Assembly (NCBI RefSeq): GCF_003075415.1
Contig: NZ_QDAH01000005.1
Location: forward strand, 124,001-188,000
Reading direction: 5' to 3'
Length of the DNA: 64,000 nucleotides
Origin: Microvirga sp. KLBC 81
GTDB lineage: Bacteria > Pseudomonadota > Alphaproteobacteria > Rhizobiales > Beijerinckiaceae
The notes beneath the pieces are model-generated. The model was not told where the DNA came from and did not search any database. It saw nothing but the letters and a program-made list of their open reading frames with translations. This document shows, one piece after another, positions 7,646-31,698 of this stretch (position 1 is the stretch's first letter; each line of letters opens with the position of its first letter). Position numbers and translations under genes: made by a program.

Positions 7646-7661
7646 GTTGACAAGTGTCAAC
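7646..7661. promoter_or_regulatory. Palindromic operator candidate
   Basis: GTTGACA-AG-TGTCAAC is a perfect 7-bp inverted repeat with a 2-bp spacer, two bases upstream of the HTH gene's ATG on the minus strand. A further TGTCAA lies at 7675-7680, which reads TTGACA on the minus strand and could be a -35 box 17 bp before the palindrome. A repressor bound here would block that promoter, consistent with autoregulation. Confidence 0.5.
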
Positions 7662-7782
7662 CCGGCCATTCGCGTGTCAAGAGGGCCTAGCTTCCGCACC
7701 GACAGCTCAATCGTTTCAGGCCCGATTTTCTAAGCTGCTGTTCTCAAAGACAAATCAGCCTCGCGAGCGGGGACTGCCAGTC

Positions 7783-7792
7783 TGTGCGGTGC
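7783..7792 (+). promoter_or_regulatory. Phage module motif copy 1 (TGTGCGGTGC)
   Basis: First of eight exact copies of TGTGCGGTGC. It lies 115 bases upstream of the small terminase gene at 7908 and is followed by CCGC, which could pair with GCGG of the motif. It is a candidate promoter for the packaging module. Confidence 0.5.
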
Positions 7793-7907
7793 CAACAGCC
7801 GCCAATCAGACCCATTATCCCCCGCGTCGCCCCGCACGCCCGCGTTCTTCTCATCGGGAAGTGAGCGACCAGCGAACGAACCTCGATCCATCGAGGTAGA
7901 TGATCAA

Positions 7908-8399
7908 ATGGCGAAAACAGAACTCCCTAAGCTCAACACACCAGGACGTACCGTCCTCGCCATCCCCAAGGTCAGGCGCTTCCTCGATCTCATGGTGGAA
8001 GGACAGAAGCTCGTCGACGCTGCTGATGCCGTCGGTCTCAAGCGCAAACGTGCCCGCCTCATCCTGAGAGATCCTGCCGTTCGTAAGCAGTTCTTCCAGG
8101 AGATTGAGGAGCTCCGGGAGAGCGAGAGAGCCCGAAACATTCTCCTCGCGGTCTCCATCAGGGATGAAGGGATGACCGCTGACGCAACGGCTGCAAGCAA
8201 GAAAGTTGCGCTTGAGGCCGCACGCTACCTGGACGGCGATAAGGAGCAGGGCGGCATCACGATCAATGGCGGTCAGAACGTGATTGCTGGCTACGTGATC
8301 AACCTCGATGGGCCTTCTGAAGGGCCGAAGCTGATTTCAAGTCAGCGGCAGGACGACGCTAAGCCATTGATCAATCGAGAGGGCGTTACCGATGTCTGA
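7908..8399 (+). CDS. Terminase small subunit-like DNA-binding protein
   Basis: This 163-residue protein has an N-terminal HTH region at about residues 20-60 (FLDLMVEGQKLVDAADAVGL then KRARLILRDPAVRKQFFQEI), which matches the 'G.s...AA..vGl....a...lr.p.v...f' pattern of phage small terminases. The middle is helical and the C-terminus more variable. It is the first gene of the rightward late region, upstream of the large terminase, as usual. The small subunit recognises phage DNA at the packaging site and hands it to the large subunit. Confidence 0.7.
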   Translation: MAKTELPKLNTPGRTVLAIPKVRRFLDLMVEGQKLVDAADAVGLKRKRARLILRDPAVRKQFFQEIEELRESERARNILLAVSIRDEGMTADATAASKKVALEAARYLDGDKEQGGITINGGQNVIAGYVINLDGPSEGPKLISSQRQDDAKPLINREGVTDV

Positions 8400-8673
8400 C
8401 GGTAACACGCTCACTCGGGTCGATTGCTGCACTGCACGAGCAGACATCGGTGCTGTCGAGGGCATGCCATCCGCTCAGCCAGCAGCCCCGGTGTGTTCGT
8501 TCGTTGCTGCTGGCCATGGTGCCTGCGTTTCGCGAGGCCCGGCGACTGGAGGGGGTGGGGGAAAATCCAGCGCGCAGACAGCAGCTCCTAACCCCCACAC
8601 GCAATTTCCGCCCAAAACATCCGGGGTCTGGTCGGGAAATTTTTTGCACCCGGAATATTCGAGGATGAGATGA
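8392..8673 (+). CDS. Hypothetical phage ORF with tight overlaps
   Basis: This is a 93-residue ORF whose start overlaps the terminase small subunit by eight bases (ATGTCTGA) and whose stop shares ATGA with the next gene. GAGAGGG sits at a good ribosome-site distance. Against it, the product is low-complexity (a run of six Gly/Thr around GGGGG, many Pro and Ala) and matches nothing I know. The 3' part contains a run of six T preceded by a weak hairpin (about 8604-8645), so this stretch may instead be an untranslated leader or terminator. Confidence 0.4.
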   Translation: MSDGNTLTRVDCCTARADIGAVEGMPSAQPAAPVCSFVAAGHGACVSRGPATGGGGGKSSAQTAAPNPHTQFPPKTSGVWSGNFLHPEYSRMR

Positions 8674-8897
8674 ACGTTCGTGCGAAGTTTAAGTGCCAGC
8701 AGATCGTCAGGACCCACGGCAACCCAGAAGGTTCTGCCGAGGTCCGCCTGACCGCCGCCACGAGCGGCGAGGCAAACAAGGAATGGTCGAAATGGACCCC
8801 TAGCGGTTCGATCACGATGCTGATCACTAACCCGTCGGCAATCGAAGCATTCGAACTCGGCAAGGAATACTACGTCGATTTCACCCCTGCTGAGTGA
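8670..8897 (+). CDS. Small conserved-type phage protein
   Basis: This 75-residue protein begins MNVRAKFKCQQIVRT, with GAGG four bases before the ATG. It is beta-rich, with LTAATSGEANKEWSKWTPSG in the middle and ending ELGKEYYVDFTPAE. Proteins of this look recur in alphaproteobacterial podoviruses near terminase genes, but no function is known to me. It is followed at once by a strong terminator. Confidence 0.65.
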   Translation: MNVRAKFKCQQIVRTHGNPEGSAEVRLTAATSGEANKEWSKWTPSGSITMLITNPSAIEAFELGKEYYVDFTPAE

Positions 8898-8903
8898 CAC
8901 GGG

Positions 8904-8930
8904 GGAGGCTTCGGCCTCCTCAGATTTTTT
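8904..8930 (+). terminator. Intrinsic terminator with UUCG loop
   Basis: The stem GGAGGC (8904-8909) pairs with GCCTCC (8914-8919) across a TTCG tetraloop, followed by T6 at 8925-8930. This is a textbook rho-independent terminator after the 8670-8897 gene. Confidence 0.85.
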
Positions 8931-8955
8931 GGCTTCAAAACATTCGAGGGTTGAG

Positions 8956-9453
8956 ATGACACGACACTACTATGGCACCAAGCGCATCATCGCCGTGCCG
9001 ATGACTCGCGCCGAGTACAACGCCTATCGCGGCTGGACAGTGCCAGCTGACGAGAACCCGAATGATGAGGGGTGTCTCGTTGAATACACGGACGGCGATC
9101 GTTCGAACCATCCCAACCATGCTGGCTATATCTCGTGGTCGCCCAAGGATGTCTTCGAGGCGTCCTATCAGCCGTTTACGGCGCTGTCGTTTGGCCATGC
9201 GATCGAGGCCTTGAAGGTCGGTCATCGCGTCGCCCGAGCCGGCTGGAATGGCAAGGGCATGTTTCTGCGCCTAGTGCTCTCCATCCACGATATCCCGCGT
9301 GGCGGCACAACCCACCCGGTCTACCGGCTCACCACCGAAGACGAAGCGACTGCATTGCCGTGGATCGGCATGAAGACGGCCGACAACAAGTTCGTGCCTT
9401 GGCTCGCGTCGCAGACCGACATGCTGGCGAATGATTGGGTGGTTCTCGAATGA
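8956..9453 (+). CDS. Tad2-domain (DUF2829) fusion protein
   Basis: This is a 165-residue protein from ATG 8956, which has GAGGG seven bases upstream; an upstream TTG at 8929 lies in the terminator. Residues about 1-68 form a phage-specific domain (PMTRAEYNAYRGWTVPADEN ... GYISWSPKDVFEASYQP). Residues about 72-165 match DUF2829/Tad2: FGHAIEALKVGHRVARAGWN, GKGMFLRL, then MKTADNKFVPWLASQTDMLA and NDWVVLE. Known Tad2 proteins are phage sponges that bind the cyclic ADP-ribose-type signal of the Thoeris defence system. Whether this fused form binds a signal is inference. The N-terminal domain might alter targeting or oligomer state. Confidence 0.75.
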   Translation: MTRHYYGTKRIIAVPMTRAEYNAYRGWTVPADENPNDEGCLVEYTDGDRSNHPNHAGYISWSPKDVFEASYQPFTALSFGHAIEALKVGHRVARAGWNGKGMFLRLVLSIHDIPRGGTTHPVYRLTTEDEATALPWIGMKTADNKFVPWLASQTDMLANDWVVLE

Positions 9454-9683
9454 GAACCGTCCCCCTCGAACACGGCGAGATCTGCCGGCCCTTCCGCTGG
9501 AAGCAGTTCATCGTGCTCCATCCGGCGAAGCAGCCGGCGATCCTGTGCCTGCATTCGCGGGTGAAGGCGCGGCTCAAGGAGTGGCGGCATCCGAGTGCGC
9601 CGCTGGTTGAGCAAGCGAAACTTGCGCGCGTCGAAGATCCAGATGCGGATTTCGTCGCCGCTGTGGTGAGGACGATTTCATGA
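9450..9683 (+). CDS. Small hypothetical phage protein
   Basis: This 77-residue protein starts at ATG 9450 in an ATGA overlap with the Tad2-domain gene and ends in an ATGA overlap with the next gene. It begins MRTVPLEHGEICRPFRWKQF and is basic in its middle. No family is recognised. The perfect overlaps on both sides support it as real and co-translated. Confidence 0.65.
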   Translation: MRTVPLEHGEICRPFRWKQFIVLHPAKQPAILCLHSRVKARLKEWRHPSAPLVEQAKLARVEDPDADFVAAVVRTIS

Positions 9684-9970
9684 GTGCCGAGATCCTCAAC
9701 CTGTTCGGCAGTGAGCGGACTGAACCGGAAGGGCCTCACCTTTCCGGTCAAGCCGTTTGCATGGCTTGTAAACATGAGTGGGTTGCGGGTGCCCCAGTCG
9801 GCACGGTGCATCTCGAGTGCCCCGCGTGCAAACGGACGTGGGGACAGTTCAAGAACCCGGTCGAGCCCTCGGTCGCGTGGTCCTGCCAATGTGGCGAGCA
9901 GCTGTTCTGGATCACTCCGAACGGTTGCCAGTGCAGAGCCTGCGGGTCGATTCAGGAGGGCATGTTTTGA
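9680..9970 (+). CDS. Zinc-ribbon phage protein
   Basis: This 96-residue protein has four cysteine pairs, CMAC, CPAC, CQCG and CRAC, spaced as two treble-clef or zinc-ribbon units. It starts in an ATGA overlap and ends overlapping the TTG start of the large terminase. Placed directly before the terminase, it might assist packaging or act as a DNA-binding regulator; the function is not known. Confidence 0.65.
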   Translation: MSAEILNLFGSERTEPEGPHLSGQAVCMACKHEWVAGAPVGTVHLECPACKRTWGQFKNPVEPSVAWSCQCGEQLFWITPNGCQCRACGSIQEGMF

Positions 9971-11571
9971 CCGATCTCCTCGAAATGACGGCGGCTCCGC
10001 CGCAAATCCATAGGGACGCCGAGGGCCGTCCGATCTACGTTCCTGACGGGAAGGTACTCCGCGGCTTCATGAAGTCGAATGCCCGAGTGCGGATCATCCG
10101 CGGCCCGATCCGTTCGGGCACGTCGTCGATGAGTTGCTTGGAGATCTATCGCCGGGCGTGCGAGCAGAAGCCGGGACCTGATGGCTATCGGCGGACGCGC
10201 TGGGCGATTGTCCGCAACACCTATCCGGATCTGCAGCAGTCGACCGTCAAGACGTGGCTTGCTTGGTTCCCGGAGAAGGACTTTGGCCGGTTCATCTGGT
10301 CGAAGCCCATGGTGCACACGCTGCGCAAGGGCGATGTGATTGCCGAGGTCGTGTTCCTGGCGCTCGATAAGCCGGAGGACGTGAACAAGCTGCGTTCGAC
10401 TGAATGGACCGGCATCTGGTTCAATGAGCTCGAGTACATACCGAAAGAGCTATTCGACGAGGCGGAATCGCGTGCCGGCTACTATCCGGCGATTAAGGAC
10501 GGTGGCGCGACATGGTCTGGCGTGCTCGGAGACATGAACGCGCCGTCGGAAGACAACTGGCTTGTCATGATGACGGGTGAGGTGCCGCTACCGGAAGACA
10601 TGCCGGATGAGGAACGGCAGCAGTACCAGTGGCCGGAGGACTGGGATTATTTTGTCCAGCCGCCAGGACTAATCGAGATCTTTGGCCCCGACGGCAAGAC
10701 AGTCGTCGATTACAAGCTGAATCCGGAAGCCGAGAACCTGACCTGGATCCCCAAGATCAACGGGCGGCCGCTTTACCTCGAAACGATCAAAGGCAAGTCG
10801 AAGCGCTGGATCGACAGCCGCATCATGAACCGGATCACGGCGCCCGTTGAGGGAACGCCGGTCTGGCCGATGTTCGTTGAAGAGACGCACGTCGCCAAGG
10901 TGCCGCTGAAGTACAATCCCGGGCATCCTCTCTATGTGGGCCTCGATTTCGGGCGAACGCCTGCGGCGATTATCGGTCAGATCATCAACGACCGCTGGGT
11001 GATCGTTGGTGAGGTCATCGGCAACGACATGGGCGCGACCACGTTCGCTCCGATCCTGCGGCGGTGGCTGTTCCAGAATTGCCCTGGCCTGGTCGACGGC
11101 GATTCCATTGGGGCGCTTGAAGAGGCGGTGCGCACCGGCCGGCTCCGGCTCTACGGCGATCCAAAGGGCCAAGACAAGACACAAGCCGACGAGCAGACCG
11201 CCTATGACGTGTTCCGGGATCACGGTATGCGCGTCTCCCCGGCACCGATTCCCTCGAACTCCATTCAGACCCGTATTGAGGCGGTCGAGTTCGTGCTCAA
11301 TGGCATGCGGGATGGCATGCCCCGGTTCTTGCTCTCGCCCAATTGTCGGACGCTGAAGATGGGCATGGCGGGCGGATACCACTTCAAGAAGGGCGATACG
11401 GTGAAAGCCGAACCGGCAAAGAACCGGTACTCGCATCCATGCGATGCCCTGCAATACCTGGTCCTCGGCGCGGGCGAGGGCAGGGTGATGACAGGCCGCG
11501 AACGTCCCAGCAACACGCACGCGGCTCCTGTCCAGACGAGGCAGTCCCGCCGTTCCCTCCGGAGGATCTGA
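9967..11571 (+). CDS. Terminase large subunit
   Basis: This is a 534-residue protein. The start is TTG 9967: AGGAGGG (9954-9960) lies six bases upstream and the TTG overlaps the preceding stop. The ATPase domain occupies about residues 30-260. The Walker A position reads RGPIRSGTSS, where the usual Lys is replaced by Thr; the Walker B-like segment is GIWFNELEY, with the NE form common in podovirus terminases. The RuvC-like nuclease domain has YVGLDFGRTPAAI, YGDPKGQDKTQ and a final HPCDALQY carrying the metal-binding acidic residues. The enzyme cuts concatemers and pumps DNA into the procapsid. The missing Walker A lysine is unusual. Confidence 0.9.
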   Translation: MTDLLEMTAAPPQIHRDAEGRPIYVPDGKVLRGFMKSNARVRIIRGPIRSGTSSMSCLEIYRRACEQKPGPDGYRRTRWAIVRNTYPDLQQSTVKTWLAWFPEKDFGRFIWSKPMVHTLRKGDVIAEVVFLALDKPEDVNKLRSTEWTGIWFNELEYIPKELFDEAESRAGYYPAIKDGGATWSGVLGDMNAPSEDNWLVMMTGEVPLPEDMPDEERQQYQWPEDWDYFVQPPGLIEIFGPDGKTVVDYKLNPEAENLTWIPKINGRPLYLETIKGKSKRWIDSRIMNRITAPVEGTPVWPMFVEETHVAKVPLKYNPGHPLYVGLDFGRTPAAIIGQIINDRWVIVGEVIGNDMGATTFAPILRRWLFQNCPGLVDGDSIGALEEAVRTGRLRLYGDPKGQDKTQADEQTAYDVFRDHGMRVSPAPIPSNSIQTRIEAVEFVLNGMRDGMPRFLLSPNCRTLKMGMAGGYHFKKGDTVKAEPAKNRYSHPCDALQYLVLGAGEGRVMTGRERPSNTHAAPVQTRQSRRSLRRI

Positions 11572-11996
11572 TGGCTGACGGCGATACGTCCCGCGTAGCG
11601 ATCGAGCCTACGATGTGGTTCCTGGTGTTTCAGGACAGCTCCCGGACGCCTTGGGTAAACCTGCTGTCCTGGGGGCGGTTCAAGCATGTGACCGCCTATG
11701 GCTGGGTGCCGGATCAGAGGATGTGGGTCTTCTATGACGTGAGCCTCGGCAATACCCGGATTGCGATCCTTCCGGCGGGGACAGAGGCTGCACAGCAGGA
11801 GATCGAACGGTTGCGGGAACACGGCGTCACGCTGGCGATGAAGCCGCGGGGCAAGGTCTCGCGGTGGTTGCGTCTAGGGTTCTGGTGCGTGCCAGCCATG
11901 GCGCATCTCGTTGGAGTGCCTGGATGTGCGGTGCGCCCAGACCGTCTTTTCCGGCAATGTCTCCGCTATGGAGCGGAGATCGTAGACGATGGGTAA
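11571..11996 (+). CDS. Conserved-type phage protein beside terminase
   Basis: This 141-residue protein starts at ATG 11571, overlapping the terminase stop by one base. Its core (MWFLVFQ ... WGRFKHVTAYGWVPDQRMWV, then FYDVSLGNTRIAILPAG) recurs in podoviruses next to terminase genes. The function is unknown to me. Its C-terminal coding region contains module motif copy 2, so the protein end and a regulatory site share sequence. Confidence 0.65.
   Translation: MADGDTSRVAIEPTMWFLVFQDSSRTPWVNLLSWGRFKHVTAYGWVPDQRMWVFYDVSLGNTRIAILPAGTEAAQQEIERLREHGVTLAMKPRGKVSRWLRLGFWCVPAMAHLVGVPGCAVRPDRLFRQCLRYGAEIVDDG
11925..11934 (+). promoter_or_regulatory. Phage module motif copy 2 (TGTGCGGTGC)
   Basis: This is an exact copy inside the 3' end of the 11571-11996 gene, 54 bases before the ATG at 11989 that opens the portal module. 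Confidence 0.5.
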
Positions 11997-12207
11997 CGTA
12001 TTCAAGCCGAGTAAGGCGCCGCTGCGTATGGCTGAACAACAGGCCGCGGAACAGCGAAGAGAGCTCGCTCGGCAGCGCGGCATTGCTGAAAACCAGCAAG
12101 CCGCGAGTCTGCAGGACACCCTTGAGAACGAGACGAACCGGCTTGCCCGGGTATTCGGCACTCGTGCTCTCCTGGCCGGCACCGGCACACGCGCGACGGT
12201 GAGGTAA
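11989..12207 (+). CDS. Small helical phage protein
   Basis: This 72-residue protein overlaps the previous gene by eight bases. It is rich in Gln, Ala and Arg (RMAEQQAAEQRRELARQRG), so it is largely helical. It ends five bases before the portal gene. Small charged proteins of this kind next to the portal can be head-joining or scaffolding factors; no family is recognised. Confidence 0.6.
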   Translation: MGNVFKPSKAPLRMAEQQAAEQRRELARQRGIAENQQAASLQDTLENETNRLARVFGTRALLAGTGTRATVR

Positions 12208-12211
12208 GCTG

Positions 12212-13759
12212 ATGGCGGCGGATGCGCTTGAGAAGGAAGCCCTCGACCGGCTGAAAGACTGCCGAGCGCAGAAGGTCATGTTCGAGCGTGACATCCGCGA
12301 GGCGTACTTCTTCACGGCGCCGCAACGGTGCCGGGACATCTCTTCGCAGTCGGCGCCAACCCAGACCAAGCCTGAGGATGCAGCAGAACTGCAAACCTCG
12401 CTTGGGATGGAGGTTGCGCAAGATTTCGCGACCGAGATGGTGAACACGTTCATCCCTCAGGCGATCGAGTGGGCACAGCAGAAGCCGGGCGTCGATCTGA
12501 GCGAGGACGATTGGGCGGAGGTGTCAGAGGACATCGAGACCCAATCGACGACGATTCACGAGGCTATCAAGGCCTCAAACTTTTATGCTGCCGCGGCGCT
12601 GACGTTCTTCCCGGATCTGCCGGTCGGGACGTGCGCTATGTGGATCGATGACCTGCGTCCGGCGGAGCCCATCGTTTGCCAGCCGATTCCACTTCGCGAG
12701 CTGGAGATCAACGTCGGTCCCTATGGCGAGATCGATGATCGGTTCGTGGTGCGCCATACCCGGCATCGTCATTTGAAGGCGCTACTGCCAGGGGTCACGC
12801 TCCCGAAAGAGGTTGCCGACAAGGTGAAGATGAAGCCCAATGAGCGCTGCAAGGTGCAGTGGGGCTTTTGGCGCAAGTGGGATCGGACTGACGATGTTGT
12901 CTGGCAGGGCGTGATCCTGGTCGGAAACAAGAAGGTCTGGGATAGCGAATTCGTCGGGGAGGGATCCTGCCCGCTGATCGTCGGACGCTTCGACCCGGAC
13001 ACGATGTATGCCTTCGGCACTGGCCCAACCATCAAGAGCTTGCCGGAACTGCGGCGCCTCGATGAGACCGAGGCGCTCAAGATCGAGAACGCCGACTTCC
13101 AGATCCATCCGCCGTTCTCCTATCCAGATGATGGGATTACCAACTTCAGCGGCGGCATTGAGCCAGGCATGGGATACCCCTCTCGTCCTGGCAGCGGTCG
13201 TGACTTCGTGAAGCTTTCGTTTGAGGGTAACGTCGACTTTACCGAGTTCGAGACGGCGAAGATCGAGGAGCGTATCCGCCGACTTCACTTCGTGGATTTC
13301 CCGGAGCAGCTCGGTAAGACGCCCCCGACGGCGGAGCAGTGGCTTGACGAACTGCAGCGGACGAAGAAGCGCATCGGCACGCCCGGCGCTATCTTCTGGC
13401 GGGAGTTCCCAGCCCAAGTGTTCCTGCGCTTCAAGTTCCTGCTGGAGAAGCGCGGCAAGATCGAGCCGGTCAAGGTCAACGGCAAGGTGCTCTCGCTTGT
13501 GCCTTATGACCCGACCGAAGTCGCCCAAGACCAGCAGGACGCCATGATTGCCAGCCGCCTCCTCGAGATGGCGCGCAATTACTTCCCCGAGATCAGTCAG
13601 GCCGCGATCGACCCTCTGGAAACCCTGACGAACCTGAAGAAGAAGCTCCGCGACAAGGTGGTGAAGATCCGGACGCCTGAGGAAATGAAGCAGGCTGTCG
13701 AGACGATCGCACCGATGATGGGCGGCGGCGGAGCGCCTCCGGGAGTGCCGACAGCATGA
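12212..13759 (+). CDS. Portal (head-tail connector) protein
   Basis: This 515-residue protein is close in size to T7 gp8 (536) and begins with a helical region (LEKEALDRLKDCRAQKVMFE) followed by REAYFFTAPQRC. Residues about 50-90 carry the connector-type signature LGMEVAQDFATEMVNTFIP, and later FGTGPTIKSLPELRRLDE resembles the wing/stem of podovirus connectors (Head-tail_con family). It forms the dodecameric ring through which DNA is packaged and to which tail proteins attach. GAGGTAAG precedes the ATG. It lies between the terminase and the scaffold, as expected. Confidence 0.85.
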   Translation: MAADALEKEALDRLKDCRAQKVMFERDIREAYFFTAPQRCRDISSQSAPTQTKPEDAAELQTSLGMEVAQDFATEMVNTFIPQAIEWAQQKPGVDLSEDDWAEVSEDIETQSTTIHEAIKASNFYAAAALTFFPDLPVGTCAMWIDDLRPAEPIVCQPIPLRELEINVGPYGEIDDRFVVRHTRHRHLKALLPGVTLPKEVADKVKMKPNERCKVQWGFWRKWDRTDDVVWQGVILVGNKKVWDSEFVGEGSCPLIVGRFDPDTMYAFGTGPTIKSLPELRRLDETEALKIENADFQIHPPFSYPDDGITNFSGGIEPGMGYPSRPGSGRDFVKLSFEGNVDFTEFETAKIEERIRRLHFVDFPEQLGKTPPTAEQWLDELQRTKKRIGTPGAIFWREFPAQVFLRFKFLLEKRGKIEPVKVNGKVLSLVPYDPTEVAQDQQDAMIASRLLEMARNYFPEISQAAIDPLETLTNLKKKLRDKVVKIRTPEEMKQAVETIAPMMGGGGAPPGVPTA

Positions 13760-14094
13760 ACATCGACCCGCAAGAACTGAAGGACGCCTGGGCCCGGATT
13801 CTAACCGGGCGCCAGAGTTCGAATGACCATAAGCTCGCCATTCTGTGGCTTCGCCAGGTGCAAATGGAGGTCCTGCCGATGGATGCCCCGACCTGTGCGG
13901 TGCACGACAGCAACGGGCGTAGGAGGCTTGCTCGCGAATTAATCAACTTCGCGGTGAGCGAGACGGATGCCTCCGGAACAGACCAACGAAACCCAGACCC
14001 AGACGACCTCGACGCAGCAGTCGAACGAGGGCGGCGCTCAGCCGCAAACGCAGCAGGGCGCGTCCACAGAGGCGCAAAACGGCGGGTCGACTAA
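13756..14094 (+). CDS. Hypothetical phage protein overlapping scaffold gene
   Basis: This 112-residue protein starts in an ATGA overlap with the portal gene. The first 70 or so residues (DPQELKDAWARILTGRQSSN, KLAILWLRQVQMEVL) look like a normal folded protein. The last 40 are Arg/Ala-rich and lie in a different frame of the scaffold gene, a 128-base overlap. Either the protein really ends there or the overlapping tail is a by-product. It contains module motif copy 3 (CAVHDSN codons). Confidence 0.5.
   Translation: MNIDPQELKDAWARILTGRQSSNDHKLAILWLRQVQMEVLPMDAPTCAVHDSNGRRRLARELINFAVSETDASGTDQRNPDPDDLDAAVERGRRSAANAAGRVHRGAKRRVD
13894..13903 (+). promoter_or_regulatory. Phage module motif copy 3 (TGTGCGGTGC)
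   Basis: This is an exact copy inside the 13756-14094 gene, 63 bases before the scaffold ATG at 13967, which opens the capsid module. Confidence 0.5.
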
Positions 14095-14755
14095 GACCGA
14101 ACGCCCCGATTGGCTCTCTGAGCAGTTCTGGGATCCAGAGGCTGGCCAGATCAAGGGCTCTGATCTCAAGGCGCATCTGGACGAGCTCGCGGCCTTCAAG
14201 GCTGGCGAGGATTCGCGCCGCGCCGCTGCTCCCGAAAAGCCGGATGGCTATCAGCTCCAGCTTCCCGCTGATCTCGAACTGCCGGAGGGCATGTCTTTCG
14301 AGTTCGATGAGAATGACCCGATGGTTGGCCTCGGGCGTCAGATCGCGCATGCGGTGGGGCTCGATCAGGCGGGTTTCGAGAACCTGATGCTCAAGCCGTT
14401 CATCGAGGCGCGGGTTGCCGCCGTGAACGCTGAGAATGCTCGCATCACGGAACTGACCGAGGCCAATGACAAGGCACTCGGTCCGAAGGCTGCAGATCGT
14501 CGAGCTGCGGTCGAGAACTTCATCGCTGCGAAGCTCGGCGTCGAATACGCCGACGTCTTCAAGCACATTTTGCCCGTCGCGAAGGCCGTTGAGGGCTTCG
14601 AGCGCCTTATGCGTCTCAGCTCCTCCGGCGGTATGCCGGGCTTCACACAGACAGGTCGTTCGGGAGGCAGCACCCTGAGCGAAGACGAGTACCAGGCGAT
14701 GAGCCCCGCTCAGCGTCTGGCCCATGCGCGACGGGCCGCCAACGGTAGCCGTTAA
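13967..14755 (+). CDS. Capsid scaffold protein
   Basis: This 262-residue protein sits directly before the major capsid gene. It has a disordered Gln/Thr-rich N-terminus (about residues 1-45), then PDWLSEQFWDPEAGQIKGSD and a long acidic helical body, then a basic C-terminal end (SPAQRLAHARRAANGSR). This acidic-helical layout with a basic capsid-binding tail is typical of T7-like and other podovirus scaffolds. It guides procapsid assembly and leaves before or during packaging. Identification rests on layout and position. Confidence 0.8.
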   Translation: MPPEQTNETQTQTTSTQQSNEGGAQPQTQQGASTEAQNGGSTKTERPDWLSEQFWDPEAGQIKGSDLKAHLDELAAFKAGEDSRRAAAPEKPDGYQLQLPADLELPEGMSFEFDENDPMVGLGRQIAHAVGLDQAGFENLMLKPFIEARVAAVNAENARITELTEANDKALGPKAADRRAAVENFIAAKLGVEYADVFKHILPVAKAVEGFERLMRLSSSGGMPGFTQTGRSGGSTLSEDEYQAMSPAQRLAHARRAANGSR

Positions 14756-14779
14756 GCACCCTTGTAGAGAGGTTGAGAG

Positions 14780-15709
14780 ATGAAGACGCTAGTTGAATAT
14801 GCCAAGGGGCTTGAGACGACTGATCCGGCCCGCCCGCTGATCGAAATGTTCGCCACGTCCTCGGACATCATGGCAGCCATTCCGTTCGATGGCCTGAATG
14901 GTCCTGTCTATCAGGGCTTCCGTCAGGCCAGCCTTCCGACCGTGGGCTTCCGCGGGATTAACGAGGGCGCTACGAGCGGAACCGGCAAGGTGACCCCGTT
15001 CCAGGAAGCCTCGTACATCATCGACCATGATCTCGACGTGGATCGCGCGATCGTGGACCGTTATGGCGAAGAGCGTCGTGCCCGTGAAGAGACCATGGCG
15101 ATGGCCTCTGCCGGCCGCCTCTGGGTTGATACTTTCCTGAAAGGTGACAACACCACGAACCCGCGCGTGTTCGATGGCCTTCAGCGACGCGCCCGCCTGT
15201 TCAACCGCACGATGGTGAACAACGCGGCTTCGGGTGGTGGTCCGCTTTCTCTCTTGAAGCTCGATCAGGCAATCAACAACACCAATCAGCCGACCCACAT
15301 CCTGGCTGACTACTCGATGCAGCCGCTGTTTATCCAGGCAGCGCGCAACACTTCGATCTCTGGTTTCGTGATCCAGTCCTGGGACGAGGTCGGCAAGGCG
15401 AAGATGTCATATGCCGGTCTTCCGATCCTCTGGGGCTACCAGAAGGACGATCACGGTTCGCTCCTGCCGTTCACGGAAGTGGGCGCAGGTGGTGGTGCGG
15501 CTCAGTGCTCCTCGCTCTACATCGTCTCGTTCCGCGACGGTGGCCTGAAAGGTATCGAGCTGAAGCCAATGTCGTTCAAGGACATGGGGCTGCTGCAGGA
15601 CGGCATCACCTATCGCAATCACATGAACTGGGATGTGGGTCTTGTGGACGAGCACAAGTACTGCCTGACCCGCCTCAGCTCCATCACGAACGCGGCCTTC
15701 GTGGGCTAA
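14780..15709 (+). CDS. Major capsid protein (HK97 fold)
   Basis: This 309-residue protein begins MKTLVEYAKGL after a GAGAGG ribosome site. The segments VGFRGINEGATSGTGKVTPF, DHDLDVDRAIVDRYGEE and ILADYSMQPLFIQAAR follow the pattern of Bordetella phage BPP-1-type and related podovirus capsid proteins with the HK97 fold. It lies between the scaffold and a Bbp16-type cement gene, the same neighbourhood as in BPP-1-like phages. A strong terminator follows. Confidence 0.9.
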   Translation: MKTLVEYAKGLETTDPARPLIEMFATSSDIMAAIPFDGLNGPVYQGFRQASLPTVGFRGINEGATSGTGKVTPFQEASYIIDHDLDVDRAIVDRYGEERRAREETMAMASAGRLWVDTFLKGDNTTNPRVFDGLQRRARLFNRTMVNNAASGGGPLSLLKLDQAINNTNQPTHILADYSMQPLFIQAARNTSISGFVIQSWDEVGKAKMSYAGLPILWGYQKDDHGSLLPFTEVGAGGGAAQCSSLYIVSFRDGGLKGIELKPMSFKDMGLLQDGITYRNHMNWDVGLVDEHKYCLTRLSSITNAAFVG

Positions 15710-15719
15710 CGGGCACTGA

Positions 15720-15746
15720 GCGGGGGCTTCGGCTCCCGCCCTCTTT
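15720..15746 (+). terminator. Intrinsic terminator after capsid gene
   Basis: GCGGGGGC (15720-15727), a TTCG loop, GCTCCCGC (15732-15739; one G-U pair), then CCTCTTT. It is the same UUCG design as the terminator at 8904. It probably limits readthrough from the highly expressed capsid gene. Confidence 0.8.
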
Positions 15747-15771
15747 GGATGTAGGACTATAGGAGAGCAAA

Positions 15772-16203
15772 ATGGGTGCTCGCGGTTATAATTTCGACAA
15801 GCTGCTCCAGCTCAAGGACGCTGGCGCTGTCGCTGCTTCTGCCGCCGCTCAGGTCGGCGGCTCGAACCAGATCCTCGATATGGGCGCGGCTCGCTTTGAC
15901 GCGGTGGCCCGGATCAACGTGTCGGCCATTACGGTCGGCGCGGACAACGCCTACGACATCATCGTCCAGGGCTCAAACTCCGCAACGTTCGCGTCTGGGA
16001 TCGAGAACCTGGCGAGCCTGAACCTCGGTAACACGGCGGTTCGCGACGGTGGCGCTCAGACTTCGACGACCGGCATCTATGAATTGCCGGTGACGAACGA
16101 GCAGGCCGACACCGTGTACCGGTATGTCCGGATCTACACGAAGGTCGCCGGAACCACGCCTTCGATCAACTTCGACGCGTTCCTGACGACTCCGATCGGA
16201 TAA
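15772..16203 (+). CDS. Capsid cement (decoration) protein, Bbp16-like
   Basis: This 143-residue protein begins with a helical lead (MGARGYNFDKLLQLKDAGAV), then a beta-rich domain with NQILDMGAARFDAVARINVS and NAYDIIVQGSNSATFA. This pattern is that of the Bbp16 cement protein of Bordetella phage BPP-1, which caps the capsid lattice as a jelly-roll trimer. AGGAGA precedes the ATG. The match and the location after the capsid gene support the call. Confidence 0.8.
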   Translation: MGARGYNFDKLLQLKDAGAVAASAAAQVGGSNQILDMGAARFDAVARINVSAITVGADNAYDIIVQGSNSATFASGIENLASLNLGNTAVRDGGAQTSTTGIYELPVTNEQADTVYRYVRIYTKVAGTTPSINFDAFLTTPIG

Positions 16204-16242
16204 GGCCGGTCGGTTCTCGTATCAGGCAAATAGAGGCAGACC

Positions 16243-16539
16243 ATGGATAAGGTGAAGGTTTACGAGCGGTTCAAGGATGACAAGGGCAATGTCGTCGAGG
16301 CCGTGCACGAGATGTGGGCGGTGGACGCTCGCGAGGCTGTCCAGAACGGCGGTGGCCGGTTTTCGACTTCTCCATTTTCGGACGAGAAGGCAACCGCTGA
16401 CAATTCGCTCAGCGACGAGCTGAAGGTCGTTCATCGCGGTCGTGGTTCCTACTCCGTCATGCGTGGCGAGACTGAACTCCACGAAGGGCTGACCAAGGAA
16501 GAGGCCGAAAAGAAGCTCGAAGAGCTCAAGGCCGCTTAA
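16243..16539 (+). CDS. Small hypothetical phage virion-region protein
   Basis: This 98-residue protein begins MDKVKVYERFKDDKGNVVEA and ends with a charged helix (LTKEEAEKKLEELKAA). It lies between the cement protein and the tail-tube gene and is followed by a terminator. No family is recognised; its place suggests a minor head or head-tail joining role. Confidence 0.6.
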   Translation: MDKVKVYERFKDDKGNVVEAVHEMWAVDAREAVQNGGGRFSTSPFSDEKATADNSLSDELKVVHRGRGSYSVMRGETELHEGLTKEEAEKKLEELKAA

Positions 16540-16571
16540 ATCCCGCAAGGGATGGCTGTGGGGGCGTAGGG

Positions 16572-16599
16572 AAGGCCGGGTCATGTGCCCGGCCTTTTC
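16572..16599 (+). terminator. Intrinsic terminator before tail module
   Basis: AAGGCCGGG (16572-16580) pairs perfectly with CCCGGCCTT (16588-16596) across a 7-nt loop, followed by TT. Module motif copy 4 starts two bases later, so a terminator and a promoter candidate stand back to back. Confidence 0.85.
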
Positions 16600-16600
16600 A

Positions 16601-16610
16601 TGTGCGGTGC
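16601..16610 (+). promoter_or_regulatory. Phage module motif copy 4 (TGTGCGGTGC)
   Basis: This exact copy directly follows a terminator and lies 31 bases before the tail-tube ATG at 16642. GTGCGG of the motif can pair with CCGCAC at 16628-16633. Confidence 0.6.
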
Positions 16611-16641
16611 ATGGGAAGCAGACTGGCCGCACCGTGTCGGC

Positions 16642-17253
16642 ATGGACAGGCTCACGATCATCAATGACGCGCTGCTCGAAACGGGCAACAACCCGTTGAA
16701 CTTCGAGTATGACGGCTCGCCCGAATGGCAGGCCGCCGACTCCGCATACAGGCGCTCGGTCCAGTATCTAATCAGCAAGCACCGCTGGAACTTCGCCACG
16801 ACGACTGTAGACCTCGCCGGGCTCCTGCCGAAGTCGCCCTCGGCGCTGGAGCATTACAATAAGGCATACGCCCTCCCAGCGGACTGCCTGCACGTCGCGG
16901 GCGTCTATCTCAACGGCTATCCGCTCACCCAATACGAGATTGTCGATCACCGGGTCTGCTGCGCATATGACGCTGGGGTGTCGGTGAAATACGTCCGCAC
17001 CCCTTCGCCGGATCAGTGGCCGCCGATGTTCATCGAGCTGCTGACAATGAAGGTTGAGGCCCATCTCCTGCGTGGTCTCAACGAGGACACGGCGAATGCA
17101 GAGCGCCGGGACGCCAGAGTCGATGCGGAACTAGCGGAGTTCCGTTCTCAGTCTGACCAGGAGGAGGGGCGGCGGGTCATTCTACGTTCTCGTACGGCTG
17201 CGAGGCGGCGCGGGCTGGCGAGCCGTGCACCGCGCTTCCCCTATGGGAGCTAA
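16642..17253 (+). CDS. Tail tubular protein A (T7 gp11-like)
   Basis: This 203-residue protein is close to T7 gp11 (196). ATG 16642 is chosen because an upstream GTG at 16585 lies inside the terminator. It begins MDRLTIINDALLETGNNPL and has the family segments SVQYLISKHRWNFATT and YALPADCLHVAGVYLNGYPL. Tail tube A forms the adaptor ring between portal and nozzle. The gene is followed after three bases by the nozzle gene. Confidence 0.85.
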   Translation: MDRLTIINDALLETGNNPLNFEYDGSPEWQAADSAYRRSVQYLISKHRWNFATTTVDLAGLLPKSPSALEHYNKAYALPADCLHVAGVYLNGYPLTQYEIVDHRVCCAYDAGVSVKYVRTPSPDQWPPMFIELLTMKVEAHLLRGLNEDTANAERRDARVDAELAEFRSQSDQEEGRRVILRSRTAARRRGLASRAPRFPYGS

Positions 17254-17256
17254 CCC

Positions 17257-19479: not shown

Positions 19480-19497
19480 GGTTTCGGGGCGGCCTCG

Positions 19498-19507
19498 TGT
19501 GCGGTGC
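19498..19507 (+). promoter_or_regulatory. Phage module motif copy 5 (TGTGCGGTGC)
   Basis: This exact copy lies in the gap after the nozzle gene, 57 bases before the ATG at 19565 that opens the internal-core module. Confidence 0.55.
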
Positions 19508-19564
19508 ATCCGTCCGGTGCCCCCGCCATTCTCGGATTATGAACATTGTATTTCCGAGGGGCTG

Positions 19565-20032
19565 ATGGGCGATCCAGTATCAGCGGGCCTGATGACGGCT
19601 GCGAGCGCCGGGCTGAAAGTCGCCGGGGGCATCGGCGCCGGGCAGTCGGCCAAGATGGAAGGCAAGATCAAGGCCATCCGCTACAAGACGGCGGCTGAAG
19701 CCGGGCGAGTGCGCGCTATCCAAACCGATGCGGCCTACCGAGATGAGCTCAGCACGACTCTGGCGAACATCGACGCGATCACGGCGGGACAGAACCGAGG
19801 TGTGGATAGCGCCACGTCACGGGCTCTCGCGTCAAAGGCGGAACAGATCAATTCGCGCGCCCGGCAAGTGGCGACCTCGAATGAGATCATCAAGGCCATC
19901 AGCTCCGACACTGATGCTGCGATGGCGCTCTATGCGGGCAAGCAGGCGATGAATGCCAGCATGTTGGGCGTCATCCCTGACGCGCTCAGTGCTGCGCAGG
20001 GGCTGTATAAGGCGGGGCAAGGGTTGGGCTAA
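19565..20032 (+). CDS. Internal virion protein (gp14-like)
   Basis: This 155-residue protein starts at ATG 19565, with GAGGGG well placed upstream; the frame is open further upstream but lacks a ribosome site and would overlap the motif. It is Ala/Gly-rich and helical (SAGLKVAGGIGAGQSAKMEG, then DAITAGQNRGVDSATSRALA), like the small internal-core proteins of T7-type phages that insert into the outer membrane on ejection. It is coupled by TAATG to the next core gene. Confidence 0.65.
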   Translation: MGDPVSAGLMTAASAGLKVAGGIGAGQSAKMEGKIKAIRYKTAAEAGRVRAIQTDAAYRDELSTTLANIDAITAGQNRGVDSATSRALASKAEQINSRARQVATSNEIIKAISSDTDAAMALYAGKQAMNASMLGVIPDALSAAQGLYKAGQGLG

Positions 20033-23000
20033 TGGTTGATATTCTACAGGCATCTGGAGCCCTCAAGCCTCAGCCCGGCCTCGCCGCAGTTCCAGAGAAC
20101 CGCGTGTCTGCGTCGGAGGTCATGGCGCCTTATACGATGACGGCGCGGGCTCTCGGCTATCTCGGCAACCGCCTGGAAGAGGCGACGCTCCCGATGCAAG
20201 AGGCAGCTGGCGCGCAGGCCGTCACGATGGATGCCGATGGCAATGTGAAAGTGAACCGCCGTTGGCTTGAGTTCTCCCAAGGTGATCGCGCCTACAACCA
20301 TGCGGCGAGTGTGGCCGGGCTTGCCATGGCGCGAACGAAGGTCAGCACGGATCTTACCCAACTTCGCATCCAGTTCGACGGTCGACCGGACGAGTTTCAA
20401 AAGGCCGCCGATGCCTATGTGCGGGATATCGGGAAGGGCGGTGATCGGTTTCTTCGGCCCCTGATCCAGCGGGAAGCCGGGAATGTGGCCGGCCAACTTG
20501 CCCGCGGGCTGATGGTCGACAAGGAGCGGGTGGACTTCCAGCGCTTCAACAATGACCTGAATGCACGTGAACAGCAGCTCTCTGATCAGCTGGAGAGCCT
20601 GGCGGAGCAGAGCGGCGTCAACACGCCGGAGTTCCTGGAGAAGCAACAGGAGCTTGTTGATCTGCGTGCGCAACGGGCAGGCAATCCGAAGTTCGCCTAT
20701 TCGCCTGAGCAGGCAGCGATCGACAATGGGCGCACTGGGGAGCATCTGAAGGCGCTCGCAATCGTCGGGCAGTACCGACGCCAATACCTTGAGACTGGCG
20801 ATCTCGCCGGGACGCTGAAGGCAGCGGAGGAGCGGCTTAATGCCGAAGACCTGAAGCTCCCGCCTGATCAGCGGGCGAAGTATCTCGGTGCCATCACAGC
20901 GCGCACTCAGGCTGCGGCGGCTGTCCGGCAGGAGACGATCCGGCAGACGACAGATCAAGCGGATCTGCTGATCACCGCCCTGAACTCCGAGGATAGGGTC
21001 GATCCCCGCACGGTCGACGACACCATAACGACCCTGCGGCAGTACCGCCAATACTCGAAGGTCGCTCAGCTTGAGACAGCGCGCGTCGTCAATGAGATCG
21101 CGCCTATCCTGCGGAGTGGGACGCCTGTCGAGAAGGCCGCTGCAATGGCACGGCTGCGGGGGCAGGCGGCTACTGGCACGACAGATCGCGAGGCCTATTA
21201 TCGCGCCATTGGGGCGGCGGAAAGCAGTGGCGATCCGAACGCGAGAAACCCAAACTCGTCTGCGACCGGCCTTTTCCAGTTCACTAAGGGGACGTGGGAT
21301 CAACTTCGGGAGGATCATCCAGAACTCGGGCTCACTGCTGACGGGCGCACGGACCCTGAGCAGCAGCGCCGCGCGATCCGGATATTCACTGATGAGAACG
21401 AGGCTAGGCTCCGCTCGATCGGGGCTGAGCCGACCGCTCAGAACCTCTATACCGCGCATTTCCTTGGCGGCGCTGGCGCTGTCCGGTTCATCGGCGGACT
21501 CCGCACGAACCCGAATGCACCAGCCGCGAACTATGTCGATCCTGATGCTGTCGACGCAAACCGGACGATCTTCTTCACAGATGGTGGCAGGGGGCGCGCT
21601 CGAACGGCCCAAGAAGTCTACAGTCTCCTTGGAAACAAGGTTGGAGATGCAAGCGGCTCCGTAGGGCAAGGCCCCGTGTACGCCGCTGCCGTGAAGCAGC
21701 TCCAGACCAAGTTCAATGCTGAGGTCGAAGCCGCCTGGACGAAGGTCAAGACGGCCTGGGACAATGGTGATCAGCCGACACAGGATGAGATCCAGAACGT
21801 CGTTGCCCTTGCGCCCCTGCTCTCCGATCCGAAAATGCGGAAGGAGATCGCGGAGCGGTTTGAACGTGAGGAACTGCTTGAGCGGGTCGACGGGCAATCC
21901 GTTGTTGCGATCCGCACCGCAGTCGACGAGTTGGACCGGGCTGCTGAGGCGGGGGATCTTCCTCCAGCCGGCCGGGCTCTGCGTGACGGGCTCGCAAAGC
22001 GTGAAGAGATCCTGACGAAGAAGTTGCAGGACGATCCGCTCTCCCTGGCAGGCTCTGGGCCACTCTCGGGCGAGCTGGGAACGGGTGTGCGGGAATCCAT
22101 CGGCCCGCTCCGCTTCGATAGTGTCGATACCTTGCGGGCCCAATTGCAGCAGCGCGCCATTGTCGCGCGAACCGTGTCGAACTACCACGGGCAGCCTCTC
22201 GGCTCAGTGTTGCGCCCTGATGACGTGCCGCAAGTCCGGCAGATCCTGCAGAGCGGCGACGGTGGCACGGTTTCGGCCTTCTTTAGCGCCATCGGCGGGC
22301 TGGATAACGATGTCCTGTTCGCGACACTGGCAGACAACAAGTTGGCCCAGACCGTTGAAGGCCTGACCAAGACGACAGATTACGGGAAGTACACGGCGGC
22401 TATGTCGGGCATGGATCAACTGCTCCGCCGCAACCCTGATCTGTTCGTGCAGACGTTCGGCGCGGATGCGGTCGCGAAGGTCCAGGGCTGGCAGGCCCGC
22501 CTTGCGTGGGAGACGCCGGACGAAGGGGCCAAGCGCCTGGGCAAGCTGGCGGATGGGCGCACCAGCAAGATCGTTGAGGAGATGCGCTCCGAGGCTCGTG
22601 AATGGGCCAAGAAGAAGGGCGACGATGCGGCGATTAACGATCTCGGCATTGATGCCAGCGCCCGTGCCGCCTTCCTCGCGGATTATCGCCAGATGATCGA
22701 GGACGCCAACATTGAGGCCGCTGACCCGGAGGCGGCTCACAAGGCAGCCCTGACCACACTGAAGACTGTCTGGAAAGAGTCTCCCACAAATGGCGGGCGC
22801 GTGATGAAGCATGCTCCTGAGCAGTACTATCCAGCCGTCGACGGCTCGCATGAGTGGATGCGGCAGCAAGTCGAAGAAACCCTAATCACGCGGCTGGGGC
22901 TTCAACCGAGCCGCACGGGGGGCAAGGGTGGTTCGGTCGAAATGCGGCCGACTACCCCGGCCTATACCCTTGTCTCGACGCCAGAAACGCAAGCCGACAT

Positions 23001-27623: not shown

Positions 27624-27626
27624 CTA

Positions 27627-27636
27627 TGTGCGGTGC
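27627..27636 (+). promoter_or_regulatory. Phage module motif copy 6 (TGTGCGGTGC) with hairpin
   Basis: This exact copy starts three bases after the stop of the large core gene and lies 32 bases before the fibre-adaptor ATG at 27669. GGTGCGGG (27632-27639) pairs perfectly with CCCGCACC (27652-27659), then TT. Confidence 0.55.
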
Positions 27637-27668
27637 GGGGACGCCTGCTCTCCCGCACCTTAGCGCTC

Positions 27669-29925: not shown

Positions 29926-29929
29926 TGCG

Positions 29930-30118
29930 CTACCACATCGCAGCGTCGCGGTCGTACTGTTCACGCTCTTCTTTCGTGAGCGGTGGAAGGTGCCGCTGGT
30001 GCCACCATAGCAAGAGCCCCCCTCCCACATAGAGGGTGATGAGGGCGATCAGCAGCAGGGGGGAGGTCGAGGCCATGGCCTGGATATAGCCGCTTTCTGC
30101 CCCTGAGCCAAGACTCAT
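29930..30118 (-). CDS. Possible single-pass membrane protein in lysis region
   Basis: This is a 62-residue minus-strand ORF in the only gap of the lysis region. It has a convincing transmembrane helix (SPLLLIALITLYVGGGLLLW) and a charged tail ending LPPLTKEEREQYDRDAAMW. ATG 30118 is used; ATG 30124 is also possible, and neither has a clear ribosome site. It may be a holin-like or Rz-type accessory, or a spurious frame. Confidence 0.4.
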   Translation of the reverse strand: MSLGSGAESGYIQAMASTSPLLLIALITLYVGGGLLLWWHQRHLPPLTKEEREQYDRDAAMW

Positions 30119-30166
30119 TCCCATCACGAGGACACCATGACCACCGAGACATTCGGGCGGCACTCC

Positions 30167-30176
30167 TGTGCGGTGC
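30167..30176 (+). promoter_or_regulatory. Phage module motif copy 7 (TGTGCGGTGC)
   Basis: This exact copy lies 50 bases before the endolysin ATG at 30227, at the head of the lysis cassette. GCGG of the motif can pair with CCGC about ten bases downstream. Confidence 0.55.
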
Positions 30177-30226
30177 CGCCCCGGCTCCGCCCCCTGATAC
30201 TCGCCCCAACAAGGAAGGGGCGGGGC

Positions 30227-30898
30227 ATGGCTCGAAAGATCAATCAGGAAGGCCTGGAGAAGCTGAAGGGTTTTGAGGGGCTCCGGCTGAAGGCTTACCT
30301 CGATGGCGGCGGCGTTCCCACGATCGGCTACGGCCACATTCGCGGCGTCCGAATGGGCATGACCTGCACAAAGGAGCAGGCCGAAACTTGGCTCCTAGAG
30401 GATCTCGCCCAAGCAGAGTTGGCCGTCGAGCGGGGCGTGAAGGTGCCTTTGACTGACAACCAATTCGCGGCACTGGTCTCTTTCACCTTCAACGTTGGGA
30501 CAGGCGACCCAGACAAACCGAAGGCTCCAAAGGGTTTCCTGACGTCGACACTACTGAAGAAGCTCAACAAGGGCGGCTACGATGCCGTGCCTGAGGAGCT
30601 GATGAAGTGGGTGAATGACAACGGGAGACGGGTTCCCGGGCTTGTGACACGGCGTGCCGCTGAGGCGGGACTGTGGGCTAAGGAATCCTTCGTCGCCTCG
30701 AACACGGTCCCTGCCACCCCGAAGGTGCCACCGGTCATCACCAAAGAGAATGTTACCTGGGCGACGGGTATCCTAACGACGCTCGCGAGTTCGTTCGCCT
30801 CTGGCCCAATGCAGTACGTCTTTGCCGGCGCAGTCGCAGTTGCTTTCGGGCTCGGCTTCTATTGGCTTATCCAGAGCCGCAAGGAGGCTGCTGCATGA
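30227..30898 (+). CDS. Endolysin, GH24 lysozyme with C-terminal membrane anchor
   Basis: This is a 223-residue protein. The lysozyme domain (residues about 1-150) has the T4-type triad Glu17-Asp26-Thr32 with the exact 9 and 6 residue spacing, within GFEGLRLKAYLDGG and GVPTIGYGH. ATG 30227 is chosen over an upstream frame start because AAGGAAGGGG precedes it. After a Pro-rich linker (VPATPKVPPVITKEN), residues about 190-215 form a transmembrane helix (YVFAGAVAVAFGLGFYWLIQ). It cuts peptidoglycan at lysis. A C-terminal rather than N-terminal anchor is less common and could hold the enzyme at the inner membrane until holin action. Confidence 0.85.
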   Translation: MARKINQEGLEKLKGFEGLRLKAYLDGGGVPTIGYGHIRGVRMGMTCTKEQAETWLLEDLAQAELAVERGVKVPLTDNQFAALVSFTFNVGTGDPDKPKAPKGFLTSTLLKKLNKGGYDAVPEELMKWVNDNGRRVPGLVTRRAAEAGLWAKESFVASNTVPATPKVPPVITKENVTWATGILTTLASSFASGPMQYVFAGAVAVAFGLGFYWLIQSRKEAAA

Positions 30899-31152
30899 TC
30901 TGGCTGCTTAGCAACTGGCGCGTCCTGGCAGCGGCTGCGCTCGCGGGCTGGATTGGATTCGAGCTTGGCGGCTGGCGTGAGTACCGCCGTGGTTGGGACG
31001 AGGGCCGGGAAGCTCTGACCGCTGAAACCAAACTGGTCCTCGAGGAGAAGAACGATGAAGCAGCTCGGGCTGATGGGGCTATGCGCCTTTGCCTTACCGA
31101 CCCTGCTTGCCGGCTGTCAGACGATGGCTGGCGCATCGACAAAGCAGATTGA
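30895..31152 (+). CDS. Rz-like inner-membrane spanin
   Basis: This is an 85-residue protein starting at ATG 30895 in an ATGA overlap with the endolysin. It has an N-terminal transmembrane helix (VLAAAALAGWIGFELGGW) followed by a charged periplasmic helix (REYRRGWDEGREALTAETKL, then LEEKNDEAARADGAM). This is the layout of i-spanins. The lipoprotein gene partly nested in another frame (31055) is its likely partner. Together they fuse inner and outer membranes at the end of lysis. Confidence 0.7.
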   Translation: MIWLLSNWRVLAAAALAGWIGFELGGWREYRRGWDEGREALTAETKLVLEEKNDEAARADGAMRLCLTDPACRLSDDGWRIDKAD

Positions 31153-31264
31153 GGCTTCGGTCTGCCGAGACTGGCGTCCGCAACGGTGGGCCTCGACGGA
31201 TCACCCGATTACGGTTGACAACGCCAAAGGAAACAATGCTCGCCGCAAGGCGTGGTGTGGGTGA
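31055..31264 (+). CDS. Rz1-like outer-membrane lipoprotein spanin
   Basis: This is a 69-residue protein whose first 98 bases lie in a different frame inside the Rz-like gene. It starts MKQLGLMGLCAFALPTLLAG, and the lipobox LLAGC gives a lipidated Cys21. The mature part (CRDWRPQRWASTDHP, NNARRKAWCG) has two further Cys that could link subunits. The nested Rz/Rz1 arrangement is a hallmark of two-component spanins; here the o-spanin runs past the end of the i-spanin. Confidence 0.75.
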   Translation: MKQLGLMGLCAFALPTLLAGCQTMAGASTKQIEASVCRDWRPQRWASTDHPITVDNAKGNNARRKAWCG

Positions 31265-31319
31265 CAGTGTAGCTCCTGACCTCGGAACAACCGGGCAGCG
31301 GGCGGCGTAAACAGGGGCA

Positions 31320-31643
31320 ATGATAGTGGGCAAGGACCAGCTGCCGGATACCAACGAGGGCTATCTTGTCCTGCCTCGTCGCATTGGATGGGCTATCGTG
31401 GTGGGTGGCGTTCTTTATGCGGCTGGAACGGGCTGGGCAGCCAACGGCTATGTCAGCCGGCTGGAGAAGCTCGAAGACGCTGATGCCCGGTTCTTTCGCG
31501 AACGCGACGAACGGCGGGCCGCTGTCGACCAAAGACTTGCTCGCCTAGAGCAGAGCCAGGACCGCATTACCCGCCTCGAGGAGCAGGTGAAAATCTCCAT
31601 AGAGATGCTCAAGGAGATCAAGGACGAGCTGAAGCGCCGCTGA
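31320..31643 (+). CDS. Membrane-anchored coiled-coil phage protein
   Basis: This 107-residue protein has one transmembrane helix at about residues 22-42 (IGWAIVVGGVLYAAGTGWA) followed by a long coiled coil to the end (FRERDERRAAVDQRLARLEQ, ITRLEEQVKISIEMLKEIKD). It is in the lysis cassette, so a holin or antiholin role is possible. A single membrane helix with a coiled coil also fits gp67/gp18.5-type accessory proteins. AGGGG precedes the ATG. Confidence 0.6.
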   Translation: MIVGKDQLPDTNEGYLVLPRRIGWAIVVGGVLYAAGTGWAANGYVSRLEKLEDADARFFRERDERRAAVDQRLARLEQSQDRITRLEEQVKISIEMLKEIKDELKRR

Positions 31644-31653
31644 TGTGCGGTGC
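31644..31653 (+). promoter_or_regulatory. Phage module motif copy 8 (TGTGCGGTGC)
   Basis: This exact copy begins just after the stop codon of the coiled-coil gene and lies 45 bases before the ATG at 31699. GTGC and GCAC around AGG form a small hairpin at 31650-31660. Confidence 0.55.
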
Positions 31654-31698
31654 AGGGCACGGCATCCAGACCGATAGTCCTCTCAGAAGGATAGGACC

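Follow-up and report, generated by a model that had tools for sequence, protein, structure and literature searches.

Putative two-part late promoters, repeated eight times in a Microvirga prophage and conserved in related phages

Analysis of a 64,000-nt window of the Microvirga sp. KLBC 81 draft genome (contig NZ_QDAH01000005.1, positions 124,001 to 188,000) uncovered eight identical copies of the 10-mer TGTGCGGTGC in the late region of a prophage, each paired with a −10-like sequence downstream, and to judge from the sequence these eight sites are very probably promoters. The bipartite element, its spacing and orientation, its synteny among related phages, the lineage-specific letters of the 10-mer (here called the box) and the coincidence of predicted transcript starts with start codons are observed features of these genomes. 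The box is probably the upstream half of a late promoter that the host RNA polymerase (RNAP) reads with a housekeeping-type sigma factor and a phage activator. We infer that transcripts start at the predicted sites, that a sigma70-type RNAP is the reader, and that the activator is a small helix-turn-helix (HTH) protein encoded at 1518-2063, hereafter protein A. An earlier note on this DNA had read the repeats as a promoter set, which agrees with their single orientation, the −10-like partner at a fixed distance, the synteny and the start codons found at predicted starts.

A recount returned exactly the eight exact copies of the 10-mer reported earlier, all on the forward strand and all within the prophage late region, and none on the other strand of the window, whereas 100 dinucleotide shuffles gave a mean of 0.21 copies and at most 2. 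Near-matches are not enriched (69 at ≤2 mismatches vs 88.7 expected), and the signal is therefore a sharp 10-mer. The prophage corresponds to a 46,438-bp IMG/VR contig (G004; window position = G004 position − 13,548). The whole 6.86-Mb draft genome holds 24 copies, the eight of the prophage and 16 elsewhere; the latter are near background, as the reversed control pattern occurs 12 times in the same genome. Two of the non-prophage copies form an inverted pair in a longer AT-flanked palindrome (L024:501-560, contig C43), probably a host operator without relation to the phage.

Aligning the window copies with those of relatives revealed a second element that is missing from the earlier note: an A and a T that lie 21 and 25 bases downstream of the 10-mer, respectively (A-N3-T, located by the offset of its A). 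It is present at +20 to +22 in all eight prophage copies (six at +21, two at +22) vs 1 of the 16 other genome copies (Fisher p 1.2e-5). Across relatives, the family pattern NGTGC(GG|GT|TT)TGC gave 320 forward and 17 reverse sites, or 170 and 14 non-redundant ones once near-duplicates were dropped at 70% flank identity. Among the 170 forward sites, 93 carry A-N3-T at +21 and 128 at +20 to +22, compared with a mean of 17.0 (maximum 32) for shuffled flanks and 18.5 (maximum 39) for three-offset windows at other distances; it accompanies 3 of the 14 reverse sites. By class, named from the two variable bases, the counts are 24/28 for GG, 54/81 for GT and 50/61 for TT, and the GG sites of six other GG sources all have the element (26/26; L071/L072 and L150/L227 are near-copies). 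A one-mismatch copy with A-N3-T, CGTGCGGTGC, lies in the prophage left arm (L065:10917-10926, window position −2631) and is either due to chance or a further site.

The promoter numbering used here was assumed, not mapped, and sets the A at −11 and the T at −7 of a sigma70-type −10 element. The 10-mer then covers about −41 to −32, with bases 7-9 at −35 to −33; copies 1 and 2 have an 18-bp spacer and the other six a 17-bp one. Within this frame the box places GTGC at −40 to −37 and, after a single free base, a −35-like (T/G)TG where the TTG of a −35 element (TTGACA) would be, at −35 to −33. The window's GG class has GTG at this place, and the GT, TT and AT classes have TTG. With the same assumed numbering, a sigma70-type −10 with A−11 and T−7 occurs at all eight window sites and at 128 of the 170 family sites (+20 to +22). 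The predicted start was placed at +32 from the box.

Copy 1 of the box (7783-7792; −10-like element 7813-7818, A at +22, 18-bp spacer; predicted start 7825) stands before gene 7908, at the small-terminase position. Copy 2 (11925-11934; element 11955-11960, A at +22, 18-bp spacer; start 11967) lies within the 3′ end of a conserved open reading frame (ORF), 11343-11996, ahead of gene 11989 and of the portal gene 12212, and copy 3 (13894-13903; element 13923-13928; start 13935) within ORF 13756-14094, before the scaffold/head genes 13967 and 14780; the box is therefore not always intergenic. Copy 4 (16601-16610; element 16630-16635) directly follows a terminator-like hairpin at 16578-16595, as the earlier note had described, and its predicted start, 16642, is the A of the tail-gene ATG. 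Copy 5 (19498-19507; element 19527-19532; start 19539) precedes gene 19565. Copy 6 (27627-27636; element 27656-27661) precedes gene 27669 of the fibre region, with a predicted start at 27668, one base 5′ of the ATG. Copy 7 (30167-30176; element 30196-30201; start 30208) stands before the endolysin gene 30227, and copy 8 (31644-31653; element 31673-31678; start 31685) directly 3′ of the TGA of ORF 31320-31643 and before gene 31699. All eight pairs are on the forward strand.

The coincidence of ATG and predicted start extends through much of the family. For the tail gene (window 16642), the ATG lies at +31 to +33 in 49 of the 57 sources with a homologous ORF after the site, 37 of them at exactly +32, and for the fibre-region gene (window 27669) in 10 of 10 sources; four known duplicate loci were excluded from these counts and other close relatives were kept. 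On this ground both genes are predicted to be made as leaderless mRNAs. At copy 5 the predicted start, 19539, coincides with the ATG of an eight-codon ORF (MNIVFPRG) whose stop overlaps the start of gene 19565 (TGATG, 19563-19567), and 19539-19567 possibly encodes a leaderless leader peptide; the G001 flank at the matching place has no ATG at the predicted start.

Relatives were collected via the major head protein and the portal. They include records from Bosea, Rhizobium, Gellertiella, Ferranicluibacter, Brucella tritici, Ruegeria, two Rhizobiales/Hyphomicrobiales and one Arenimonas metagenome-assembled genome, along with many viral contigs and phage Mwe-JY08. Carriers of the motif are prophages, mostly of Rhizobiales and other alphaproteobacteria, together with viral contigs and Mwe-JY08; the Arenimonas assembly is by name not an alphaproteobacterium. 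Layout and synteny are kept across these relatives and the letters vary by genome, as GTGC-GG-TGC, GTGC-GT-TGC, GTGC-TT-TGC and, in a distant Ruegeria prophage, GTGC-AT-TG. Most genomes have a single main version, found at syntenic positions ahead of the terminase region and of the portal, scaffold/head, tail, fibre and lysis genes. The main version is GGTGCGTTGC in G002, TGTGCTTTGC in many Rhizobiales prophages, AGTGCTTTGC in G009 and (C/A/T)GTGCGTTGAG in Mwe-JY08, where four of five sites have A-N3-T at +21. The Bosea relative G001 carries TGTGCGGTGC in nine forward copies and one reverse copy; the latter (position 17138, pieces L038-L040) points away and stands immediately ahead of the first late site, without A-N3-T at the usual distance.

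More divergent relatives extend the pattern. The Ruegeria prophage L144 (head protein 41%) has five forward and no reverse copies of GTGCATTG, all five with A-N3-T at +21 or +22; they precede the terminase region, the portal, the head region and the tail gene, with one at a further place. L227 combines protein A, related late genes and a divergent head protein (38%) with five copies of TGTGCGGTGC, again all with A-N3-T, and among the deeper relatives L129-L133 there is one site with A-N3-T, in L133. A de novo scan for repeated 8-mers with A-N3-T recovered a word resembling the motif from 10 of 30 relatives, but 11 of 50 control strands likewise gave some match; the scan is therefore a lead only, and L144 rests on its five of five sites and on synteny.

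On a tree of 48 large terminases, the TT class forms one clade (100/100), and Mwe-JY08 and L075, both of the GT class, fall together with the GG phages; at least five class-label changes are needed on this tree, which has several long branches and parts that are unsure. Letters that change in concert across many sites of one genome are expected if a trans-acting factor reads the box. In L034, terminase and portal are 92-93% identical to those of the window phage and the head protein 39%; together with the head protein of L227, this may reflect exchange of head genes between conserved promoters in both phages.

We propose that host RNAP with a housekeeping-type sigma factor would read each site with the help of a phage activator bound to GTGC, beside sigma region 4. 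The poor −10 keeps only A−11 and T−7, usually with C or G at −12, and because the −35 and −10 are both weak, the promoter would depend on the activator; poor elements of this kind fit activator-dependent promoters. One regulator, likely protein A, would thereby open eight late modules at once, with leaderless mRNAs for two of them (16642 and 27669).

Protein A (181 aa, 1518-2063, forward strand) has an XRE-like HTH and a basic helical C-terminus, and we lean slightly towards its being the activator that reads the box at the eight candidate promoters. The earlier note had placed a phage RNA polymerase or activator outside the window; an activator still appears likely, but the best candidate is inside. 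Integrase, ATPase, exonuclease and one HTH protein, protein A, are encoded in the left arm of nine of nine long relatives. Its profile matched 10 of 10 long contigs (G001, G002, G004-G011; window phage included) and 50 of 89 sources overall, or 75 of 114 with a better profile, many of the misses being short loci, and protein A is the sole match of its kind in its own genome. Scanning viral contigs with protein A alone recovered 23 loci (window phage included), 22 of which have a class site with A-N3-T; in three of the 23 such a site also occurs on the reverse strand. TGTGCGGTGC is the main version in the four other loci whose protein A is at least 53% identical (L147-L150), and those below 50% have other versions, a pattern that also tracks phage relatedness.

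The Pfam family HTH_3 matches protein A just below the curated cut-off (21.9 bits vs 23, E 1.8e-4). Its predicted structure has a mean predicted local distance difference test (pLDDT) score of 84, with HTH residues 21-90 at 89-98, and is closest in the PDB to HipB (TMt 0.82) and also similar to restriction C proteins, with a best E of 2.4e-3 and none ≤0.001. The basic helical C-terminus is present in the protein A rows of GG and several GT phages and missing from the TT-class rows as cut. An A-like domain occurs in 8 of 199 genomes of the host family (own included), and nine of the 11 places outside the own genome were examined.

Several observations weigh against this account of the sites and their activator. 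A-N3-T is less regular in the GT class (54/81), and at −12, a position where 119 sites could be aligned, T is near-absent (T 2%, C 65%, G 31%). A sigma70 consensus scan of 7400-20400 called none of the five sites there. Conserved left-arm genes other than protein A exist, L167 encodes protein A with one box and no A-N3-T, and eight of the nine A-like regions examined (not L227) showed no comparable series of sites. Finally, a recognition-helix code linking protein A to the box letters was sought by aligning 48 distinct domains by class, and no clean code emerged: TT-class helices are nearly all (Q/H)(E/D)GY, but GG and GT overlap, with PSGYT in both L150 (GG) and L145 (GT), and no code is therefore claimed.

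Other factors could act on the same DNA. The promoter may be as described with a different trans-acting factor, either a host factor or another phage protein such as the 129-aa protein encoded at L065:8984-9373, a version we consider unlikely though credible. This protein is found in eight of nine long relatives at higher identity than protein A, but was not found in G002, a motif carrier, and matched no Pfam or PHROG family; a host factor alone poorly explains letters that change, at every site in a genome, with the phage lineage. That the box is instead an operator, where a repressor (protein A or a different one) covers the −35 region and silences the late promoters in the lysogen, seems improbable: the −10 and −35 appear too poor for strong unaided promoters, and an asymmetric box at fixed orientation and distance from the −10 would be more like an activator site or core promoter element. 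In its favour, the box overlaps the −35 position and XRE-like proteins are often repressors. TgrL of the Caulobacter phage phiCbK is one such XRE-type repressor, according to the available part of PMC10462132.

Recognition of the whole element by an alternative sigma factor of phage or host, without an activator, would account for the two-part promoter behaviour, the single spacing and the near-absence of T−12, but is distinctly improbable, as box letters vary between phage lineages, the 13 Sigma70_r2 matches in the own genome include none on the prophage contig (C5), and no sigma factor is among the 25 of 51 Pfam families listed for 64 prophage ORFs. The earlier note's other options fared worse. 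Numerous same-orientation copies ahead of late modules are a typical feature of T7-like phages and their single-subunit RNAP, yet a partner element at −10 spacing speaks against such an enzyme and there is next to no chance that one recognises these sites; the searches for sigma factors and RNA_pol and the Pfam results gave it no support, with no RNAP among those same 25 of 51 families and no RNA_pol match in the own genome, a weak negative since 14 control genomes also gave none. An RNA-processing hairpin in the transcripts is very improbable as well. Some copies, such as copy 4, can pair with downstream bases, but the 50 bases downstream show no preference for class-matched complements: five-base complements to the site's own letters occur at 29 of 81 GT sites vs 42 for the GG motif, and at 11 of 61 TT sites vs 18.

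Among described systems, T4 middle promoters are the nearest arrangement, with a phage-specific box at or over the −35 position, a host-type −10 and a phage activator; their MotA box is centred at −30, 12 ± 1 bp from a strong −10 (both from the accessible part of PMC2988021). In contrast, the box reported here occupies about −41 to −32 and is separated by 19 bp from a weak −10; its letters differ between lineages, and the start site often coincides with a start codon. Lambda CI at PRM and restriction-modification C proteins are small HTH proteins that contact sigma from just upstream of the −35, mostly from palindromic or paired sites. The modelled fold of protein A resembles HipB and C proteins, at the E value given above, but the box is short and asymmetric and serves ~5-9 promoters per genome. 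TgrL is, like the XRE-like protein A, encoded by an alphaproteobacterial phage, although the part of PMC10462132 available describes this XRE-type regulator as repressing host genes early rather than activating late ones. In Bordetella phage BPP-1, the terminase, head-tail adaptor, head and tail genes follow a similar order. The earlier note had proposed looking for the motif in BPP-1-like phages, and syntenic series do occur in relatives, but the late region of BPP-1 itself has other repeated words and no GTGC-NN-TG site with A-N3-T.

Elsewhere in the prophage, minus-strand genes at 2387-7358, between protein A and the late region, are unmatched in relatives. Pfam matches among prophage ORFs include a WbsX glycosyltransferase, RgpF and a methyltransferase; these probably come from the 2387-7358 genes, perhaps surface-sugar cargo. 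Left of the window, L065:9674-10183 encodes a protein with a GapR-like DNA-binding domain (Pfam E 3.7e-36).

No description of this promoter was found in the literature searched, which leaves most subscription papers outside it; literature matches to the box letters are unrelated by title, among the matches listed, and the accessible parts of PMC8631192, PMC5492332 and PMC10386132 do not describe the motif.

For the family as a whole, we put forward, as a proposition we regard as evenly balanced, that these temperate, mostly alphaproteobacterial phages may each carry ~5-9 matching bipartite late promoters served by one small XRE-like activator, that several concerted switches of box letters would represent natural matched activator-promoter pairs, and that several structural operons would be leaderless. 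The leaderless starts predicted at 16642 and 27669 would fix those gene starts and bear on structural-protein production. If true, the reading would define at sequence level the late promoters of a phage family for which the literature searched offered no such definition, and would name a testable regulator. It would also provide natural lineages in which a regulator's site has changed at many places of a genome at once, so that coevolution of a regulator with its many sites would be directly testable.

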